Part shown: positions 37,408 to 51,940 of the stretch, piece by piece | Numbering within the stretch: position 1 is the first letter of the stretch | Layout of the letters: the number at the start of each line of letters is the position of its first letter | NCBI GenBank assembly: GCA_002155105.1 | Contig: MUZD01000002.1 | Coordinates: 1 to 64,000, forward strand | Source: Sedimentibacter sp. SX930 | GTDB lineage: Bacteria; Bacillota; Bacilli; Lactobacillales; Aerococcaceae | Reading direction: 5' to 3' | DNA length: 64,000 nucleotides | Made by a program: the position numbers and the translations under genes | Notes under the pieces: model-generated | What the model was told of the DNA's origin: nothing | The model's input: only the letters and a program-made list of their open reading frames with translations | The model's database searches: none

Positions 37408-38577
37408 ATGACAATTAAATTTAACAAAACAGAATTATTCGCGGAAGCAAAAGCGAAATTATCCGCAGTATTATCAAATCCTGAAAGCACTGAGGCAGAG
37501 CAGACATCTGCTTATCAAAATTACCTGGAAGTGATGCAAAATGAGATCGTGAAAGCTGTATCCAGCCAAGTAAATAACGAAATGTTGGATCGTAGCATTT
37601 TGCAACAACGTGGCCAAAATGTCTTAACATCAGAAGAAACTAAGTTCTTCGCGGCTGTAGCCAATAGCGGTGGTTTCTCGGACGACACAATTCTGCCGGT
37701 TACAACACAAGAACGCGTGTTTGAAGATTTGGTACAAGAACATCCTTTATTAGCGGAAATCGGGTTGGAGAATTTAGGAGCTGTAACGCGTTATATTGAC
37801 TCAGACCCAACAAAAGCATATGCATGGGGAGATCTTTTCGGTGGAATCGCAGGACAAATTGCTAGTGCATTCTCTGAATCAACAGTTGGACAATTAAAAC
37901 TTACAGCATTTGCTGCAATTCCTACTGACATTGAAGAACTTGGTCCAAAATGGATTGAACTTTATGTTCGTACAGTATTGTCAGAATCTTATTCATTTGG
38001 TTTAGAGTTTGGGTTCGTGAATGGTGGGGGTGCTGTTGCCAAACAACCTGTTGGTTTGACAAAAAATGTGGATCCTGAAACAGGTGCGGTAACGGCTAAA
38101 ACCTCAAGCGGAACTTTGACATTTGAACCTTCGCAATATGGAGAAGTAGTAGCAGGAGAGTTGTATAGCGTTGTTAAAGAATTGTCTGTTGATGCTGAAG
38201 GTAAATCGCTAAAAGTTAACAACAAAGTAGTTATGGTAGTAAATCCAATTGACGAAATCGCAGTACAAATGCGTAATACAATCCAAACCGCAAACGGACA
38301 ATGGGTGACGGCTCTCCCATACAACATCAAAGTTATTCCATCGGAAGAAGTTGCAGTAGGAAAAGCATTATTCTTTGTCAAAGGTCGTTACAAAGCTAGA
38401 TTGTCTGGTGGTGTGAAGGTTAAGAAGTTTGATCAAACATTAGCAATTGAAGATGCAACGTTGTACACATTGAAGCAATTCGCAAACGGTGAGCCAAAAG
38501 ATAACAAAGCTGCATTGCTGTACGATTTGGATATTAAATTTGCTCCAATGACTACAACAACCACAACAGGTGTCTGA
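37408..38577 (+). CDS. HK97-fold major capsid protein with C-terminal poly-Thr tail
   Basis: The 389-residue protein has an N-terminal helical scaffold-like region (1-about 100; LFAEAKAKLSAVL) followed by the HK97-fold region (RVFEDLVQEHPLLAEIGLENLG onward). The strong ribosome site TGGAGGAAAA and AT-rich codons suggest high expression. The protein ends MTTTTTTGV: six threonines, Gly, Val. The same ending occurs on the major tail protein, and a glycosyltransferase gene follows that gene; the tails may be O-glycosylated (inference). Confidence 0.93.
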   Translation: MTIKFNKTELFAEAKAKLSAVLSNPESTEAEQTSAYQNYLEVMQNEIVKAVSSQVNNEMLDRSILQQRGQNVLTSEETKFFAAVANSGGFSDDTILPVTTQERVFEDLVQEHPLLAEIGLENLGAVTRYIDSDPTKAYAWGDLFGGIAGQIASAFSESTVGQLKLTAFAAIPTDIEELGPKWIELYVRTVLSESYSFGLEFGFVNGGGAVAKQPVGLTKNVDPETGAVTAKTSSGTLTFEPSQYGEVVAGELYSVVKELSVDAEGKSLKVNNKVVMVVNPIDEIAVQMRNTIQTANGQWVTALPYNIKVIPSEEVAVGKALFFVKGRYKARLSGGVKVKKFDQTLAIEDATLYTLKQFANGEPKDNKAALLYDLDIKFAPMTTTTTTGV

Positions 38578-38593
38578 TAAGGAGCTGATTTAA

Positions 38594-38908
38594 TTGGCTA
38601 TTACAGATCGTTTCGTTAATGACTTCAAGGAGAGAATGCGCATCGGAGATTATGAGGATGATAATCTGAAACGCATCCTTGAAGCTTCTGAGCAAGATTT
38701 GCTTTCCAAATGCGGTGAGTTTGACATTGAATCGCATCATGGGTTCAGAGAGTTGGTTTATGAGAGAGCGCGTTATGTTTATAACGACGCTCTCGAATTT
38801 TTTAACATGAACTTCCAAAGCCAAATCAATGCTTTGGGGATGGAAAAAGCTCTGTCCATGATACTGGTTGATGCCGATGGCAATGAAATTGAGGTGGTCC
38901 AAGAGTGA
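38594..38908 (+). CDS. head-tail connector (gp6-like)
   Basis: The 104-residue helical protein starts with TTG after AAGGAG. Pattern IGDYEDDNLKRILEASEQDLLSKCG and FRELVYERARYVYNDALEFF fits gp6/Gp15-type head-tail adaptors. It docks below the portal. Confidence 0.82.
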   Translation: MAITDRFVNDFKERMRIGDYEDDNLKRILEASEQDLLSKCGEFDIESHHGFRELVYERARYVYNDALEFFNMNFQSQINALGMEKALSMILVDADGNEIEVVQE

Positions 38909-39273
38909 TCTCCACCACATACAAACCGCCACGATTAAACAATGGCGATTTTCGGACGAAAGTAGAGTTTTACGAATACGTGCCAACCGAAGGGCCGGAA
39001 GCTGGCGAAGAGGTCAAGAATACACTTTTCGTAGCATTCGCGAAAATTGATGAAGTTTGGATGCGCGACCTGGAGTTGGCGAAATACAACGGTACGGTAT
39101 CCGATTTGACGATCAGCATTCGAGATCCGTTTAAAGTGTACGTTCCAACGAATAAGCATTTGTTAAAGATCTATGCTGCCGGGTACGAAAAAACAGTGTA
39201 CAAAATTAAAGAAGTGCAGCCGGCCTTGCAATCACGCGACATTGTCAAGATAATCGCGGAGGTGAAAAGCTGA
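38905..39273 (+). CDS. phage head closure / head-tail adaptor protein
   Basis: The 122-residue beta-rich protein begins with GTG after GAGGTGG. Motifs RLNNGDFRTKVEFYEYVPTEGPEAGEE and FKVYVPTNKHLLKI fit the SPP1 gp16/head-tail joining family. It overlaps both neighbours by a few bases. Confidence 0.82.
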   Translation: MISTTYKPPRLNNGDFRTKVEFYEYVPTEGPEAGEEVKNTLFVAFAKIDEVWMRDLELAKYNGTVSDLTISIRDPFKVYVPTNKHLLKIYAAGYEKTVYKIKEVQPALQSRDIVKIIAEVKS

Positions 39274-39665
39274 TGGGCGTAAATATTACCGGATTGAAAT
39301 CATTGCAGGCAGAACTCGAAAAGAGATTCGGCCAAGCGAAGATGCAAGAAATAAGTGACCAGGCTTTATTTGAAGGAGCGCAAGTTATCAAGAAAGAACT
39401 GGAGCAAAATTTTGAATCCTTTAGAGATACCGGTGCGTCCATCAATGAAATCACCATATCCGATCCCAAAGACGGGCCTAATGGCAGGCGCCGAGATATC
39501 CATTGGGTTGGTCCGAAAGACCGCTATCGCCTGATCCACATCAATGAGTGGGGAACCGTTAAAAATCCTAACCCGGCCGGTAAAGGGAAGGTTGCCGCAT
39601 CACTTGAAGGCGGAAAGAAAGCTTATCGAAAAGCTGTCAAGAAGGTATTGGAGAGTGAACTGTGA
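39273..39665 (+). CDS. HK97 gp10-like tail component
   Basis: The 130-residue protein contains the family motifs ALFEGAQVIKKELEQNFESFRDTG and YRLIHINEWGT, ending in a lysine-rich helix. It acts at the neck/tail joining step. TGATG overlaps at both ends. Confidence 0.85.
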   Translation: MGVNITGLKSLQAELEKRFGQAKMQEISDQALFEGAQVIKKELEQNFESFRDTGASINEITISDPKDGPNGRRRDIHWVGPKDRYRLIHINEWGTVKNPNPAGKGKVAASLEGGKKAYRKAVKKVLESEL

Positions 39666-40045
39666 TGGATGCATTAAATAAAATCTATGAAGCCTTATCA
39701 GCTGATCCCGTCATTTATGATGCGGTCGAGAATCGTATCAAATATTACGAATACCCCGAGACTGGCGCAGTCGATAAAGCATATATCATTATTGATCCAT
39801 TGCAGCCATCGATGCCTGATGATTATGCCGATAATGATTGGTTAACCGAAGAGCATTTAATACAGATTGACATTTGGTCCAAGTCCCGGGAAGAGAAAGA
39901 TAAGCTCGGGGAACGGATCAGAATGGTAATGAAAAACATAGGGTTTTACCAAAGTGGCGGCGGAATCGATGAATATGACAAGGATGTCAAAATATATCGT
40001 GATGCACGCAGATACTTGGGGAAATTCTACAGAAACGATATTTGA
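39665..40045 (+). CDS. tail terminator/completion protein
   Basis: The 126-residue protein begins MDALNKIYEALSADPVIYDAV and contains EHLIQIDIWSKSREEKDKLGERIRMVM, the pattern of DUF3168-like tail completion proteins. It caps the tail tube. GTG one codon earlier is an alternative start. Confidence 0.75.
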   Translation: MDALNKIYEALSADPVIYDAVENRIKYYEYPETGAVDKAYIIIDPLQPSMPDDYADNDWLTEEHLIQIDIWSKSREEKDKLGERIRMVMKNIGFYQSGGGIDEYDKDVKIYRDARRYLGKFYRNDI

Positions 40046-40061
40046 AAAGGAGTGCAGATAA

Positions 40062-40676
40062 ATGCCAGAAAAAAAATATTTGTCATCTACAGGGGTAGAT
40101 GAATTTTACTACGGTGTACTTAATGCCGGAGAAACCGGAATTGTAGCAGCCGCACCTGAACGCGTAAAGTTTTTGCAGGATATCGAAGTAGCGATGTCAT
40201 CCGAAATCACAAGGGCGTATGGGGATAATGTGGTAGCTGAGTTGGGTGTTTCCCAAGGCGGTGTAGCCGTGAGTGGTAATTTCCATGCGATCCCGCAATC
40301 AGATAAAAATACATTGTTGGGATTGGAAACAACTACAGGCGGTTTGTCCGCACATGGATCCAGTGATAACCCTCCTTACGTTGCAGTTATTTTTGCCAAG
40401 ACATATGAAGACGGATCAAAAGAATATGTGGGCTTGCCTAAAGGGAAGTTCCTGAAAACAAGCATCAAAGGGACATCTAAACAGGGCAATACCACTTTCA
40501 ACCAAGATGCAATCAGCGCGGAATTCATGGATCGTGCTGTGACAGGCTTTACGAAACAAAAATCGGTTGTAGTAGGGGCAGATGATGCAGCAGCAACTGT
40601 TAAACGTGACGCAATTTTTCAAGCGATTTTCGGCGTGGCATATCCGACGACGACAACCACCACTACAGGCCTTTAA
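40062..40676 (+). CDS. major tail protein (phi13 type) with C-terminal poly-Thr tail
   Basis: The 204-residue tube protein of the phi13/TP901-like group starts EKKYLSSTGVDEFYYGVLN and contains ALSAHG-type and AVIFAKTYEDGSKEYVGLPKGKF segments. It forms the stacked rings of the tail. It ends YPTTTTTTTGL: seven threonines, Gly, Leu, the same design as the capsid protein end. The next gene is a glycosyltransferase. Confidence 0.9.
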   Translation: MPEKKYLSSTGVDEFYYGVLNAGETGIVAAAPERVKFLQDIEVAMSSEITRAYGDNVVAELGVSQGGVAVSGNFHAIPQSDKNTLLGLETTTGGLSAHGSSDNPPYVAVIFAKTYEDGSKEYVGLPKGKFLKTSIKGTSKQGNTTFNQDAISAEFMDRAVTGFTKQKSVVVGADDAAATVKRDAIFQAIFGVAYPTTTTTTTGL

Positions 40677-40689
40677 CGTGGTATAGGGT

Positions 40690-41769
40690 ATGAAATATAT
40701 CCTTTGTCAGCCAGCAATCAAACGATTTGAATGGGAATTGGAAGTCTGTATCACTCGGCTGAACAAACTCGGAATCACTGACATTGTCCTGCTGTTCGCG
40801 CAGTGGGATAGTTACATTCCAAAACATTTTGAGGAAAATTACGGAGTGGAAGTTCACGTTTACAGCGATGCTGATCGCGAAAGAACGTACATCCCCAGTG
40901 TCAAACCTTTCCTCTGGATGAAATACCTTGAAGAAGACAAAACGCGTGAACAAGGCTCATATTTTTACATTGACAGTGATGTGCTATTCAGAGAGATACC
41001 GGAACTAACCCCGACTGAAGAAACCTGGCATGCATCAGACTGCAGCGGTTATATTGGATTGGATTACATCGATGGCAAGGGCGAGGACTTGCTGGAGCGT
41101 ATGTGTGAAGTTATCGGAATAGATCCCGCTTTGATCAGGAAGCACCGGCCAGTCGGCGGGGCACAATGGATCATCAAGAAGCCCTCCTTTGCTTACTGGA
41201 AAAAGGTTTATGAGGATTCGGTAAAGCTATACAAATTTCTATCAGACGTAGAATCCGAATACATCGACAGAAACGGCGCGGGCTATGTACCAATCCAGAA
41301 ATGGACCGCGGAAATGTGGTCCCAGCTCTGGAATGTCTATCAATTCGGGAAAACCGTGAACGTGGATAGCGAACTGGATTTCTGTTGGCCGAACGATCAG
41401 ATAGCCCGGTATCAGGAAACAAAAATCTTTCACAATGCTGGTGTTGTTGATGGGAACCAAGGTTTATTCTTCAAAGGGCAGTATGTTGAATACTCTCCAT
41501 TAAGCGAGGACTTGAGTTTCGTTGACAAAAACAAAGCATCTTATGAGTATGTCAAAGCAATTCGGGAGGTGAATCAAGTGGCAAAATATATAGTAATCGA
41601 GTCCTTTGGTGATCTGCAGGACAACGGAAAACCTTACAAGGCAGGGGATGGCTATCCAAGGCCTGCAAATAAGAAGGTTTCAAAAGAGCGAATTGAAGAG
41701 TTAAGCACAATTAAAAATGTAGCAGGAAGGCCTTTTATCGAAAAGGTTAGCGAAGAAAAGGGCGAGTAG
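40690..41769 (+). CDS. glycosyltransferase in the tail module, fused to a small structural domain
   Basis: The 359-residue protein has a GT-A-like N-terminal fold with the nucleotide-sugar motif DxD (YFYIDSDVLF, Asp95-Asp97). Before it stands a conserved-looking VKPFLWMKYL; after it, GGAQWIIKKP and IFHNAGV. Residues about 297-359 form a second, phage-type domain (YIVIESFGDLQDNGKPYKAGDGYPR...RIEELSTIKNVAGRPFI) seen as a separate small protein in other phages. It lies between the major tail gene and the tail chaperones. Its likely target is the poly-Thr tails of capsid and tail proteins, by inference. The ribosome site is weak. Confidence 0.85.
   Translation: MKYILCQPAIKRFEWELEVCITRLNKLGITDIVLLFAQWDSYIPKHFEENYGVEVHVYSDADRERTYIPSVKPFLWMKYLEEDKTREQGSYFYIDSDVLFREIPELTPTEETWHASDCSGYIGLDYIDGKGEDLLERMCEVIGIDPALIRKHRPVGGAQWIIKKPSFAYWKKVYEDSVKLYKFLSDVESEYIDRNGAGYVPIQKWTAEMWSQLWNVYQFGKTVNVDSELDFCWPNDQIARYQETKIFHNAGVVDGNQGLFFKGQYVEYSPLSEDLSFVDKNKASYEYVKAIREVNQVAKYIVIESFGDLQDNGKPYKAGDGYPRPANKKVSKERIEELSTIKNVAGRPFIEKVSEEKGE
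41578..41769 (+). CDS. possible internal start giving a 63-residue structural protein
   Basis: A GTG at 41578, in frame with the glycosyltransferase, is preceded by GGGAGGTG at 6-bp spacing. It would yield MAKYIVIESFGDLQDNG...EEKGE, the size and pattern of a free-standing small head-tail protein. It may be translated as its own product besides the fusion. Confidence 0.5.
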   Translation: MAKYIVIESFGDLQDNGKPYKAGDGYPRPANKKVSKERIEELSTIKNVAGRPFIEKVSEEKGE

Positions 41770-41806: not shown

Positions 41807-42157
41807 ATGGCGAACTTAAAAAGAAATATGATTGAACTTGTCCTAGACGTAAAAGAGGGCGAAATCGTAACAAAGAAATATGTAACTCCGGTATTTATTC
41901 CGTTGAGTGTGGTTTATGAAGCAATCGATTTAATGGCTGAATTGAACTCCAGAAAATCTGGACAGGCTGAAAAAGATATGATCGACAAAGTTCTGATCTT
42001 CGTTGCTGAAAAAGTCTACAATAATCAATTCACCCGGGATGACCTGTTCAATTATCTGCATGGACCAGGAGCAATCAACGAATTGTTTATGCAAGTCCTT
42101 TTTGTTGCGAGAGGGGAACAGACCGAAGAAGCAAAAAAGTACCTGGAGAGCTTATAG
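41807..42157 (+). CDS. tail assembly chaperone (gpG-like)
   Basis: The 116-residue protein, before the tape measure gene, has the usual N-terminal pattern (KRNMIELVLDVKEGEIVTKKYVTPVFIPLSV). It helps assemble the tape measure and tube. Near its end a slippery AAAAAAG allows a -1 frameshift to a longer form. ATG after AGGAGGG. Confidence 0.87.
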   Translation: MANLKRNMIELVLDVKEGEIVTKKYVTPVFIPLSVVYEAIDLMAELNSRKSGQAEKDMIDKVLIFVAEKVYNNQFTRDDLFNYLHGPGAINELFMQVLFVARGEQTEEAKKYLESL

Positions 42158-48594: not shown

Positions 48595-49374
48595 TCAATT
48601 AGCAATAACTGCACTCCCAAATTTTTTGCCAAATTGAGTTGTTGTAATATAACCTTCTGAAACCACAAGTTTATCAAAAGGTATTTCAGTTGACTTGTGA
48701 AAGTTTAACTCATGAAGAGCTCTTTTGTACAAGTCGTCTTTTTTAAATTCCGTGTATCGAGCCACGAAATGTGGTCGAATCAAAGTATTGTTATGAATGC
48801 TGATAAGACCAAGTCTTTCTAGTGTGTTTATTGACACTGGTTCATTTATTGTACCTTCATCAGTTAATATAATATTATCAATTACTGGCAATTTGTTCGT
48901 GTTAGCGTAGTTTTCATAACTAATATTCACTTTTGCAAATGCAGGGACACTATAGATTTTGTTAAATAATGTAGCATCTTTTGCGGTCAAGTCTTTTAAG
49001 ACTGTTGAGAAAGAAGGTAATACATCTTTATTCTTTCTATCATCCAACGATGAGGCAATAAGATTTGCAAACATTTCTTGAAGTTCTTCGCTATCTAATT
49101 GATATATCGAATCTTCCACAGCTTTTAATGCAAGCCCTTGTTTGGACATATCACGATTTTCGAGAGGAATATTACTATTTTTCTCCATTATTTTCCTTTC
49201 GAAATTATCCATGTTGTACTTGTTGATTATTCCAAGTTTCATAAAAGGATTCATGATAAAACTAGCAACTCCACCAATTCCTTTCCCTAATGGTTCTGCA
49301 ATTGGGTCTAACAGCTTGCCTATAGTATTTTGTGGTACCATTTCGAACCATGGATTTAAGTCAGTTTCTGGCAT
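48595..49374 (-). CDS. DUF4393 / Abi-alpha-like protein, accessory insert in the tail module
   Basis: The 259-residue protein has the DUF4393 (Abi-alpha) pattern: an N-terminal hydrophobic glycine-rich segment (PLGKGIGGVASFIMNPF), ELQEMFANLIASSLDDRKNKDVLPSF in the middle, and LKDLTAKDATLFNKI. Family members have been linked to abortive phage infection. It is transcribed against the tail genes, with its own GAGGTG ribosome site, so it can be expressed in the lysogen. Function inferred from family and context. Confidence 0.75.
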   Translation of the reverse strand: MPETDLNPWFEMVPQNTIGKLLDPIAEPLGKGIGGVASFIMNPFMKLGIINKYNMDNFERKIMEKNSNIPLENRDMSKQGLALKAVEDSIYQLDSEELQEMFANLIASSLDDRKNKDVLPSFSTVLKDLTAKDATLFNKIYSVPAFAKVNISYENYANTNKLPVIDNIILTDEGTINEPVSINTLERLGLISIHNNTLIRPHFVARYTEFKKDDLYKRALHELNFHKSTEIPFDKLVVSEGYITTTQFGKKFGSAVIAN

Positions 49375-49507: not shown

Positions 49508-51940
49508 TTGGTCTTAGAACAATTTATAATTGATGCCGACATTATTTGGGACCAGGTCGGCAAGACGTTTTTCGAAAATCCAGAAGCGAAACCCGGCCGG
49601 ATTATGCGCGTGCAAGTTGTGAATGCCGGCATCATAGAGGATCTAACGGGGTATACATTGAACCTTGGTTGGACCAGTGTTAGAGATCCTTCCAAGTTTG
49701 GACTGGATGCTTTCGATGACGTTGACATCACAAAAGGGATTTTTGAGATTGCCTATACAACTGGAATGCTCACGAATATCGGGCCGCTGAATGCATCGCT
49801 GCTGCTGGTACCTCCTGGTGAAGGAAGGCCAATAGAATCCAATAATTTCAAGCTTACTGTGAAGAACAGTGCGATCAATGCATCGGCGATTCAGGGTGAG
49901 ACAAGCTTTTCTACATTGGAGAATGCGCTCGTGGAAGTGAATGGCTGGAATGCGCGGATTGATGTGGTGGAGCAGGAGTTTAAGGATAGGGCGGAAGCTC
50001 TCGATGGGGCTTATCCGGTAAGACTTACTGCTGCAGAACAAGCTGCTACTAGTGCTGTAACGGTGGCAAATACTGCATCCCAAAAAGCGGATGCAATGGC
50101 GAGCGGTAGCCCTAAAGGGGTTTACGCTACACTCGCATTATTGCAAGCAGCCTATCCAACAGGTACGACAGGCGCTTATCTCGTTTCTGCGGATGGTAAA
50201 TGGTACTACTGGTCAGGTAGTACGTGGACAATCGGTGGCGTTTATCAAGCAACGGAACTCGGAATCGGGGCGGTGACGGACGACAAAATCAACAGTGCCA
50301 GTAAATTGGGTATGGTAACCGATGATTTGGAAGTAAATGGAATTTTAAAATCGGTAAATGTCAATCCAATCAAGAGTTATGGTAGCTTGAGCGCCAATTT
50401 ATCCCCATCATATGCCGGTATGAGCGTGCCGTTTGTCTATCATGGTATTCAACACAAATATATTTTGATACCTTATTTAAAAACAACCTATGACGCTTTT
50501 GTCACCTTTGCAATCGCTAATCTGACCATTGATTGTTGGGGAACCCAAACAAAAGGTGATGTGGATACATTAACCTACTTTGACCATTGGTTAGTTGCCG
50601 GAGAATACACCAATCTGATGATTCCGGTTGCTTTTAATTACACACCGCTTGTCGCAGAAACAGAGTATTTGTTATTGGTTCAAAGTATGCAGAATATCGG
50701 ATCACCAACATATTCAAGTCAAGCGCCTTTTCAGGTGAAGAAAAACAATAGCACAACAACTTTTGGCCCTTTAGTTTCAGCTTATCTCAAAACTAAATTT
50801 TTGCTAAACTACGGGGCATACGCTTGGGGATTGGGTAGCCCTGGTCAAATAGATTATGTTTTACCTCCCTTGGAATTGATTGAGGACATCGTACAAGTGT
50901 CCGACATTGACACATATGTGGATAATAAAATCATGAGTGTGACGTTACCCATCACCGATTATGTACCGGATGAAATTGAACTGATTAAAAATGACGATGT
51001 GGAAATCTTTTACGACAGTATTTTTAGTGTGAAGCGCATTGAAAACTATCGCTTGGACGTGACAAACGGCTTGGGAACGTACCACAACCGCAAAGCGATT
51101 ATCCAACCAGTAGACGCTACCGTGGACAAGATTACAAACGTCAAAGTCTACAACGACTACGAGCAACTGGTCAGCGAGTGTGATTTAAACTTTAAAGTCT
51201 ATCCAGTAGTAAATCCCAGTGCGCCGAAAAACTTGCTGATTATTGGTGATAGTTTGACAGAGTACGGGGAGGGCAGTAGTACGGTAAATACGCTTTACAG
51301 TAAGCTTCAGTCCAAAGGTATGACGAACATCAATTTTATCGGCACAAAAAATGCCGCAGGAAACGCGTTGGCAAAACATGAGGGTAGAGCCGGATGGCGG
51401 ACGTGGGACTATCTCGGTGTAGGAACGACCGGAAATCCTTTTGTCTACAATGGTATCGTTGATTTTGGCGCTTACTGCACCGCAAACGGGTATAGCGGGA
51501 TTGATTACTGTATCATTCACATGAACTGGAACGCAATTATGTTCAGCACGGAAACCATGGTGTCTAATCTTAGCCAACTCGTTGACAAAGTGAAAGCAAG
51601 CTATCCTAACGCAATTGTGTTTATTGTTGGGATGAGCGCTTATCGCAAAGGACGCTACACAGGTGATTTTGCTTGTAGTAAGCTAAGAGCGTGGGAAGTC
51701 GATGCCGCGTACAAAGTAATGGCCGCCACAAAAACAAACGTCAAAGCCATCAATTTATTGCCATATCGCGATATGGACTACGGCAATGTCTATAACACAT
51801 CACAAGTCAATCTGCGTAACGCTACCGACACAGAGCGGTTGTTGTCTGATCACGTGCATTGTGGAGCGGTCGGCTACATGCAAATAGCGGACGTTTATTT
51901 CCGGAAATTGGCAAAACAAACTTATCTGGAATCGTTATAA
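49508..51940 (+). CDS. baseplate/receptor-binding protein with SGNH hydrolase domain
   Basis: The 810-residue protein has a BppU-like N-terminal domain (about 1-130; QVVNAGIIEDLTGYTLNLGW), a linker with helical repeats, a tip-like middle, and a C-terminal SGNH/GDSL hydrolase (about 570-810). The catalytic Ser582 lies in LLIIGDSLTEYGEG, and Asp781/His784 in SDHVHCGAVGY. It probably binds and deacetylates host surface glycan during adsorption. The TTG start follows AAAAGGAGTG. Confidence 0.87.
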   Translation: MVLEQFIIDADIIWDQVGKTFFENPEAKPGRIMRVQVVNAGIIEDLTGYTLNLGWTSVRDPSKFGLDAFDDVDITKGIFEIAYTTGMLTNIGPLNASLLLVPPGEGRPIESNNFKLTVKNSAINASAIQGETSFSTLENALVEVNGWNARIDVVEQEFKDRAEALDGAYPVRLTAAEQAATSAVTVANTASQKADAMASGSPKGVYATLALLQAAYPTGTTGAYLVSADGKWYYWSGSTWTIGGVYQATELGIGAVTDDKINSASKLGMVTDDLEVNGILKSVNVNPIKSYGSLSANLSPSYAGMSVPFVYHGIQHKYILIPYLKTTYDAFVTFAIANLTIDCWGTQTKGDVDTLTYFDHWLVAGEYTNLMIPVAFNYTPLVAETEYLLLVQSMQNIGSPTYSSQAPFQVKKNNSTTTFGPLVSAYLKTKFLLNYGAYAWGLGSPGQIDYVLPPLELIEDIVQVSDIDTYVDNKIMSVTLPITDYVPDEIELIKNDDVEIFYDSIFSVKRIENYRLDVTNGLGTYHNRKAIIQPVDATVDKITNVKVYNDYEQLVSECDLNFKVYPVVNPSAPKNLLIIGDSLTEYGEGSSTVNTLYSKLQSKGMTNINFIGTKNAAGNALAKHEGRAGWRTWDYLGVGTTGNPFVYNGIVDFGAYCTANGYSGIDYCIIHMNWNAIMFSTETMVSNLSQLVDKVKASYPNAIVFIVGMSAYRKGRYTGDFACSKLRAWEVDAAYKVMAATKTNVKAINLLPYRDMDYGNVYNTSQVNLRNATDTERLLSDHVHCGAVGYMQIADVYFRKLAKQTYLESL

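Follow-up and report, generated by a model that had tools for sequence, protein, structure and literature searches.

Poly-threonine C-termini of virion proteins accompany a predicted glycosyltransferase in phages of Bacillota and point to a probably sugar-coated particle

The window analyzed here, a stretch of 64,000 nucleotides, carries the capsid and tail genes of a prophage (a dormant virus) whose host is a Trichococcus bacterium (Table 1). The major capsid protein (MCP) ends in ...KFAPM-TTTTTT-GV-stop and the major tail-tube protein (MTP) in ...GVAYP-TTTTTTT-GL-stop. These endings, six threonines with Gly-Val and seven with Gly-Leu, are as read in the initial annotation, and its two further statements, that the runs differ in codon order and that the proteins are otherwise unrelated, also hold: the run is encoded as ACT ACA ACA ACC ACA ACA in MCP and as ACG ACG ACA ACC ACC ACT ACA in MTP, and the cores of the two proteins belong to different families in both Pfam and PHROG, namely Phage_capsid/phrog_10 and Phage_TTP_1/phrog_88 respectively. 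Taken by itself, the ACN pattern is no rarity in this genome of 3.13 Mb, with 5 overlapping matches at 3 sites versus 12 matches for the reversed pattern. Two of the three sites with six Thr-type codons are the C-termini of MCP and MTP, and at the third (contig C36) no Thr run was found in any ORF of at least 50 aa.

Table 1. Features of the capsid and tail region in the window
Feature	Position	Strand	Evidence
Major capsid protein (MCP), HK97 type, phrog_10	37408..38577	+	PF05065 E 6.8e-9; phrog_10 E 6.2e-37
MCP Thr6 run, then Gly-Val and stop; putative O-glycosylation acceptor	38551..38568	+	sequence
Small phrog_749 protein at the connector position, without a Thr run in the window	38594..38908	+	
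Major tail (tube) protein (MTP), phrog_88	40062..40676	+	PF04630 E 5.8e-8; phrog_88 E 3.1e-37
MTP Thr7 run, then Gly-Leu and stop; putative O-glycosylation acceptor	40647..40667	+	sequence
Glycosyltransferase (GT) gene, 359 aa	40690..41769	+	phrog_4417; GT-A fold in AlphaFold2 model
DSD (DxD) motif, GT residues 95-97	40972..40980	+	alignment of 51 sequences
Possible internal start: ribosome-binding site (GGGAGGTG) with GTG at 41578	41564..41580	+	sequence
Tail assembly chaperone, gene following the GT slot	41807..42157	+	PF23857 E 6.3e-24

Going by its AlphaFold2 model (pLDDT 92.6, pTM 0.85), the product of the gene after MTP is a GT-A glycosyltransferase (GT), with the activity being predicted. 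Residues 1-295 match positions 1-292 of the 293 in phrog_4417 (E 4.4e-113), i.e. the whole length of the family, and residues 299-356 constitute a fused small domain of the phrog_3673 type. A Foldseek comparison of the model with the PDB yielded 240 matches at E <= 0.001, of which the 50 best all read as glycosyltransferases (E 4.9e-7 to 4.2e-6 among the 50 matches listed), with UGGT, GT6 and LgtC-type enzymes being the nearest among those listed. Searches with the GT against Pfam and NCBIfam returned no match, as did a GT profile against PDB sequences, and Pfam searches with 51 GT members gave stray weak matches alone, the best being to HPAT in a single member (E 0.0058). Nevertheless, the designation of this gene as a DxD glycosyltransferase in the initial annotation stands, though it is unnamed in Pfam and NCBIfam, because the model has the GT-A fold and both aspartates of the motif, D95 and D97, are invariant in the 51 aligned sequences. 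The enzyme is probably soluble and probably uses a UDP-sugar. The internal GTG start might allow separate production of the C-terminal domain of the GT; by eye, a similar small ORF follows MTP in a number of relatives lacking the GT.

Thr runs closely co-occur with the GT across different virion proteins. Among MTP relatives, a run is present in 19 of 20 GT-bearing versus none of 39 GT-less cases (Fisher 1.4e-14), and among MCP relatives, in which five or more threonines were counted as a run, in 18 of 19 versus none of 46 (Fisher 3.8e-15); the co-occurrence check proposed in the initial annotation was thus passed. At the level of loci, a Thr-run C-terminus is encoded in 77 of the 80 GT-bearing viral loci, many of which are closely related to one another, versus a single one of the 87 GT-less relative loci, and also in 34 of the 35 Bacillota genome loci with a GT. 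The GT domain itself is matched by 75 records of the phage collection. Conversely, a search begun from Thr tails encountered the GT in 25 of 70 records versus none of 50 frame controls (p 2.8e-7), and for all ten distant GTs that were reached via the tails (27-43% identical) there is a Thr-run ORF at most 0.7 kb away. In a phylogenetic tree of MTP the two traits are clustered; it offers 4 independent pairs on well-supported branches, of which on average 3.9 are concordant and which are never discordant, with a sign test giving p 0.125, where 0.05 is unreachable with 4 pairs.

The exceptions to this pattern are of several kinds. VPE25, SA2 and bIL285 possess the GT and a Thr tail on MTP, with a capsid protein devoid of such a tail. 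In another GT-bearing phage MTP is without a run, which sits instead on a 119-aa ORF before the GT, and in one record of 39 kb the connector ends in a Thr10 tail although the record contains no GT. In a further exception, L370, the tails are Ser/Thr-rich, and its GT is followed by a second, galactofuranosyltransferase-like gene (PRK09814-type, E 6.4e-52, below the curated cut-off). Of the Thr-tailed records, 45 of 70 are without this GT, and many of those records are short. For 46 of 51 GT-less loci we searched ORFs near the tails (at most 4 per locus, 150-700 aa); of the 29 Pfam families matched (132 ORFs, 40 GT-less loci), the 25 listed include no other glycosyltransferase, and tail and other phage families were present among the 25 of 133 PHROG matches listed.

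Related viruses pair Thr runs with one GT, and therefore the virus probably sugar-coats its own particle; the reading in which we place good confidence is that the GT O-glycosylates the Thr tails of the virion proteins. In its favor, cellular, non-phage relatives of the GT, all distant, adjoin RiPP-type peptide-modifying genes in three loci inspected singly, and LanC_like is matched by 12 of the 99 neighboring ORFs of 24 cellular GT loci; against it, no Thr runs were found near these 24. The enzyme made from the gene behind MTP would transfer a sugar, presumably from a UDP-linked donor, to acceptors that are likely to be the Thr runs at the C-termini of MCP and MTP. These tails would point outward on the particle, and the benefit would most likely be a protective hydrophilic coat; the initial annotation suggests that it may shield the particle from antibodies, receptors or host factors. 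As to this last step, there is a sizeable, though lesser, chance that the GT does glycosylate the tails but that their main role is physical stability or binding, be it to lectins or glycans on the host, in biofilm or in mucus, rather than shielding. This is favored by the hosts in the records, which comprise halophilic and other environmental Bacilli, lactic acid bacteria, enterococci and staphylococci; with hosts this varied, mammalian antibodies are unlikely as a common pressure.

It is improbable that the GT modifies something else altogether, such as a receptor or wall polymer of the host (say, to block superinfection), with unmodified tails that are flexible or sticky and both elements belonging to one travelling module. 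That the GT directly adjoins MTP, here as in many relatives, would fit such a module, as would the presence of Thr tails without the GT in other lineages, but the MCP tail of the window is 2.1 kb and five genes away from the GT and tails of this kind still track it, and all the GT-less relatives counted for the two proteins lack the runs. Moreover, the pairing is seen again with several different MCP and MTP families of GT-bearing phages, in support of the earlier suggestion of a portable tag, and again in a different gene order in bIL285, where the GT comes after MCP and 1.3 kb before the Thr-tailed MTP; in this prophage of Lactococcus lactis IL1403 the MTP tail consists of a Thr9 run with three further residues. 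The connector-position phrog_749 protein is likewise Thr-tailed in several GT-bearing relatives.

That the runs are DNA repeats without protein function, arising by replication slippage or acting as a nucleic-acid signal at gene ends, is hardly credible: ACN repeats are of low complexity and run length differs among relatives, but this reading is disfavored because the codons are mixed, with no single-codon run among 223 distinct runs, and further by the differing DNA past the two window stops and by frame controls that are without the GT in every case. Three or four codons are used in 186 of the 223 runs, and identical adjacent Thr codons are observed at 0.269 against an expected 0.279, as if drawn at random. 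At the sequence level, selection is shown to act on the amino acids of the runs and not on the DNA. We also rejected a programmed frameshift into a common C-terminal domain, as the window stops do not resemble such sites; in two GT-less relatives both genes stop at CCC-TAA, with similar DNA downstream, as in the +1 frameshift of Listeria phage PSA.

A broader and more doubtful possibility is that, in the tailed phages of this group, both major virion proteins end in a modular address that corresponds to a decorating gene behind MTP, such that poly-Thr and the GT would be one entry in a swappable code of tags and decorators. A Gly-Val-Glu-Gly/Ala ending of MTP goes with a gene for a collagen-like, head-fibre-like protein (7/7 versus 0/52 others), and by eye proline/acidic endings in Gly-Ala accompany other genes in this slot. 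Further, the capsid and tail proteins of one and the same GT-less phage often agree in their last two residues: of 29 distinct pairs 23 do so, where shuffling gives a mean of 11.5.

If glycosylation of the tails is indeed what the GT does, mycobacteriophages would have no monopoly on virion glycosylation, which would occur widely among Bacillota phages, well-known examples being VPE25, SA2, bIL285 and Semele, in whose records the GT is labeled 'prophage pi2 protein 34', 'hypothetical protein' or 'Orf45'. It would also provide a function for an unnamed protein family (phrog_4417) and a simple, testable pair of enzyme and tag, would help in recognizing sugar-coated phages from sequence, and would bear on the recognition and clearance of phage particles.

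Several known systems offer points of comparison. The catalytic domain of UGGT (GT24), the blood-group and alpha-1,3-galactosyltransferases (GT6) and LgtC (GT8) have the same fold and DxD motif as the window GT, with TM-scores of 0.30-0.46 by query length and 8-15% identity among the matches listed. Ser-rich repeat adhesins of Gram-positive bacteria are O-glycosylated by transferases acting on Ser/Thr-rich low-complexity stretches, and the L370 phage tails resemble such repeats; there the acceptors are adhesins, whereas those proposed here are virion subunits. phrog_4417, which contains the window GT domain and carries no functional assignment, is here tied to poly-Thr virion tails and the GT-A fold. 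In the open-licence PubMed Central literature we found no account of poly-threonine phage virion tails: the matching text of a low-complexity-region paper retrieved with poly-threonine and phage leaves virion tails unmentioned, and the excerpted text of a VPE25 proteomics preprint shows no virion glycosylation. A match for threonine-rich, phage glycosyltransferase and virion concerns insect viruses.

The closest parallel is in mycobacteriophages. Virion glycosylation is described for Che8, Corndog and Myrna (Freeman et al. 2023, Cell Host Microbe, as cited in passages of PMC12363180, PMC12619734 and PMC13313380), and a citing passage among these papers locates glycans on both the capsid and the tail-tube subunits, at their C-terminal ends. 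As with the predicted GT of the window, the glycosyltransferase is phage-encoded, and the window has Thr tails, known from their sequence, at the same two C-termini. However, Che8 gp108, gp109 and gp110, the mycobacteriophage enzymes compared, are unlike the phrog_4417 GT (hhalign probability below 1% each) and are encoded toward the distal end of the Che8 genome, whereas the window GT adjoins MTP. Likewise, the Che8 MCP and MTP end in ...VVFNKTGS and ...EQYSDGS, with no Thr runs. The system of the window would most likely operate in the manner of mycobacteriophage virion glycosylation, but with a GT dissimilar in sequence to the Che8 transferases and with a portable poly-Thr tag.

The genome containing the window (3.13 Mb) carries, on the plus strand of the latter, a prophage virion operon with successive genes for a portal, a Clp-type protease, the major capsid protein (MCP), connector-type proteins, the major tail protein (MTP), a glycosyltransferase-fold protein (GT) and a tail chaperone. 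The window sequence bears out the initial annotation of Thr6-Gly-Val on the MCP and Thr7-Gly-Leu on the MTP, with the codon order of one Thr run differing from that of the other. The genome has three sites in all with six ACN triplets in a row, namely the MCP end, the MTP end and one on another contig, where they form no Thr run in an ORF of at least 50 amino acids. As a DNA pattern it is not over-represented in the genome (5 overlapping matches versus 12 for the reversed control); its placement rather than its frequency is the special feature. The nearest named relatives of the GT are from Trichococcus flocculiformis (93%) and T. collinsii (78%), and it is present in three genomes labelled as the same genus and absent from seven listed genomes of the same genus or species.

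Features of the prophage region, with positions in the window
Feature	Position	Strand	Remarks
MCP	37408-38577	+	C-terminal end TTTTTTGV
MTP	40062-40676	+	C-terminal end TTTTTTTGL
GT gene	40690-41769	+	between MTP and tail chaperone genes
Good ribosome-binding site and GTG start	41564-41580		within the GT gene, ahead of its C-terminal small domain
Abi_alpha (abortive infection) gene	48595-49374	-	PF14337, E 2.4e-37; between tail genes, on the strand opposite to them; likely a prophage-borne defence gene
Long tail-region protein	49508-51940		C-terminal GDSL/SGNH hydrolase-like domain (PF13472, E 6.3e-5, below curated cut-off); candidate surface-polymer esterase

Residues 1-295 of the GT belong to phrog_4417, a family without assigned function, and the stretch 299-356 matches the small 'Arc-like' proteins of phrog_3673/390. 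The GT received no name from sequence searches of Pfam, NCBIfam or the PDB. Its AlphaFold2 model is confident (pLDDT 92.6), and Foldseek matched it to UGGT catalytic domains, GT6 blood-group and alpha-1,3-galactosyltransferases and LgtC (best E 4.9e-7 and TM 0.30-0.46 by query length among the matches listed), and among viral models to Orf49 of Lactobacillus phage LP65. The modelled protein thus has the fold of GT-A enzymes, and the same structural neighbours make a UDP-sugar its probable donor. Across 51 aligned sequences, in which the relatives share 27-78% identity with the window protein, neither aspartate of the DxD motif (D95, D97) varies, and the same constancy is seen at W15, Y67, G157, Q203, W205, H248 and K262, among others; together with the modelled fold this supports the earlier reading of the gene next to the MTP as a DxD glycosyltransferase. 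In a number of GT-less phages a small ORF resembling its C-terminal domain comes after the MTP, and the GT gene is possibly a fusion with an internal start.

Relatives were collected from IMG/VR with the MTP (56 loci, tail-free query), the MCP (50 loci) and the GT (80 of 121 relatives kept), along with loci from genomes of the same genus or species. Distinct proteins with at least 35% identity and 60% coverage were counted, 6 MTPs and 18 MCPs being dropped where the locus ended early, and a Thr run was scored as at least five Thr within the last 30 residues. The MTP has such a run in 19 of 20 cases with the GT versus 0 of 39 without it (Fisher 1.4e-14), and the MCP in 18 of 19 versus 0 of 46 (Fisher 3.8e-15); the longest Thr runs in GT-less relatives are three in the MTP and two in the MCP. 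The co-occurrence expected from the initial annotation is thus found for both proteins. In the MTP exception (L027) the run sits on a 119-aa ORF immediately 5' of the GT, and in the MCP exception (L245) the MCP ORF is broken, with the downstream piece terminating in STTTTTTTSA. The GT gene is also broken in L245 and in a further relative, L324, and in both the Thr tails remain. In an MTP tree, built after most of the C-terminal tail had been removed, Thr tail and GT presence are each clustered (11 changes each); its well-supported branches give four independent pairs (mean 3.9 concordant, 0 discordant), too few for the sign test (p 0.125) to get below 0.05.

The association extends beyond the protein families of the window. 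An ORF with a C-terminal Thr run is encoded at 77 of 80 GT-bearing viral loci, as against 1 of 87 loci of GT-less MCP/MTP relatives, where these totals count loci rather than independent phages, as the three scans share contigs, and some of the 87 are short enough for the GT slot to fall beyond their ends. The three GT loci without a run (L021, L049, L081) have Thr-rich tails that are Ser-interrupted or shorter. The single GT-less locus with a run (L230) has it on the connector; no GT was found in its 39-kb record, nor by a second search that recovers all four known positives. On whole-genome contigs, runs of at least four Thr were found at 34 of 35 Bacillota loci (L337-L370, L372). In L370, a Lentilactobacillus prophage, the GT is present and the run absent; Ser/Thr-rich repeats form the ends of both its phrog_247 major head protein and a protein of phrog_341 type, and a galactofuranosyltransferase-like gene, scoring below NCBI's cut-off, comes after the GT. 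Thr-tailed head proteins span phrog_10, 840, 29 and 909, which may be distantly akin, and tail proteins phrog_88, 238, 14018/341 and 6686; a head protease (phrog_3270) and a structural protein (phrog_4247) are also tailed. Among named phages with the GT, the MTP ends one to three residues after a run of Thr10 (VPE25), Thr8 (SA2) or Thr9 (bIL285); the myophage Semele has, 5' of the GT, the small protein rich in Thr that is annotated as 'major tail protein'. VPE25, SA2 and bIL285 depart from a strict rule of tags on both proteins, as their capsid proteins lack a Thr tail despite the GT; VPE25 and SA2 have Thr runs on a protein of head-protease type, some 30-60 residues short of its C-terminal end. 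A second frame overlapping the Thr-tailed MTP end of SA2 (L333:19667-19930) likewise codes for long Thr runs, as though a frameshift might lengthen the tail. In six metagenomic phages (L115, L119, L165, L170, L181, L194) short ORFs of 61-85 aa that end in at least one Thr run come after the GT, some with a Glu-Cys-Cys motif.

Starting instead from the tails, viral contigs were scanned for stop codons preceded by six Thr codons and two further residues, which gave at least 120 loci; of the 120 listed, 70 are in frame with at least 40 preceding ORF residues and the other 50 served as frame controls. Among these, the GT was found at locus level in 19 of 70 versus 0 of 50 controls (Fisher 1.5e-5), and a whole-record search added six (25 of 70 versus 0 of 50; Fisher 2.8e-7). 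Ten positives have distant GTs (27-43% identical), each within 0.7 kb of a Thr-run ORF, in phages that, judging by their metagenomic records, appear aquatic. The other 45 of the 70 tailed records, many of them short, show no such GT, and the Pfam families listed (25 of 29) for 132 neighbouring ORFs at 40 GT-less tailed loci include no glycosyltransferase. As nearly all GT loci have tails, yet most of these tailed records have no GT, the implication from GT to Thr tails is strong in phages, whereas the reverse is valid only near the phage group of the window.

None of 223 distinct Thr runs uses a single codon and 186 use three or four, with identical codons adjacent at 0.269 against 0.279 expected under random draw; it is the residues, not the DNA, upon which selection acts.

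No Thr runs were found at 24 loci of distant GT relatives (L371, L373-L395), mostly from Bacteroidota with one labelled delta proteobacterium. Peptide-maturation genes lie near the GT relative in all three loci viewed singly: grasp-with-spasm genes in L371, a GG-leader RiPP in L386, and radical SAM and LanC-like genes in L374. Of 99 ORFs that neighbour the GT relatives across all 24 loci, 12 match LanC_like, 13 thioredoxin, 5 peptidase C39 and 10 GT2. The GT ORF of L374 has an extra Glyco_transf_7C domain that is absent from that of L386. Such peptide-modifying neighbours favour peptides or proteins as acceptors in the wider family, and the cellular versions may possibly serve glycosylated RiPPs.

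GT-less relatives present a wider pattern, in that the MCP and MTP of one phage end alike: the last two residues match in 23 of 29 distinct pairs versus a shuffled mean of 11.5 (p 0.0002). Among these (L229-L330) the last two to four residues are common, e.g. DPTV/DPTV, ALPGA/ALPGA and EPEGA/EPEGA, despite the two proteins being of different families and with codons frequently unlike. An MTP end of Gly-Val-Glu-Gly/Ala (GVEG/GVEA) pairs with a collagen-like gene in the GT slot in 7 of 7 cases (L243, L244, L263, L265, L268, L270, L274) and 0 of 52 others; PHROG matches of one member liken this gene to head-fibre proteins, and the MCP of L263 departs from the pattern, ending in APVTA. This suggests that tag and decorator may switch jointly. 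In L256 and L276 the MCP and MTP genes each terminate in CCC-TAA and are followed by DNA that is alike in both, as would be seen if the two ends were a pair of programmed +1 frameshift sites leading into a common extension.

We propose that the GT, expressed alongside the virion genes, would encounter the MCP and MTP in the cytoplasm, either ahead of assembly or while it proceeds, and there attach sugar to the hydroxyl groups of Thr in both C-terminal tails. The analysis shows the tails, the GT-A fold of the model, the co-occurrence and the amino-acid selection; we infer the acceptor, the donor, the solubility of the GT, and the surface position and use of the tails. GT hosts range from environmental and halophilic Bacilli to enterococci and lactic acid bacteria, a breadth that makes antibody evasion less likely as the common role than a general coat that protects or solubilises the particle; the glycans may also have binding roles.

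Passages of PMC12619734 and PMC12363180 describe glycans on mycobacteriophage capsid and tail-tube subunits, at their C-termini, and name Che8 gp110 and Corndog gp38 in this connection. No paper on poly-Thr virion tails was found in open-licence PubMed Central. The three GTs of Che8 have no sequence similarity to the window GT family, and its MCP and MTP, unlike those of the window, lack a Thr run; hence, the present system would be a functional analog, and not evidently a homologue, of the mycobacteriophage one. What appears novel here is the combination of a separate enzyme family with a portable tag.
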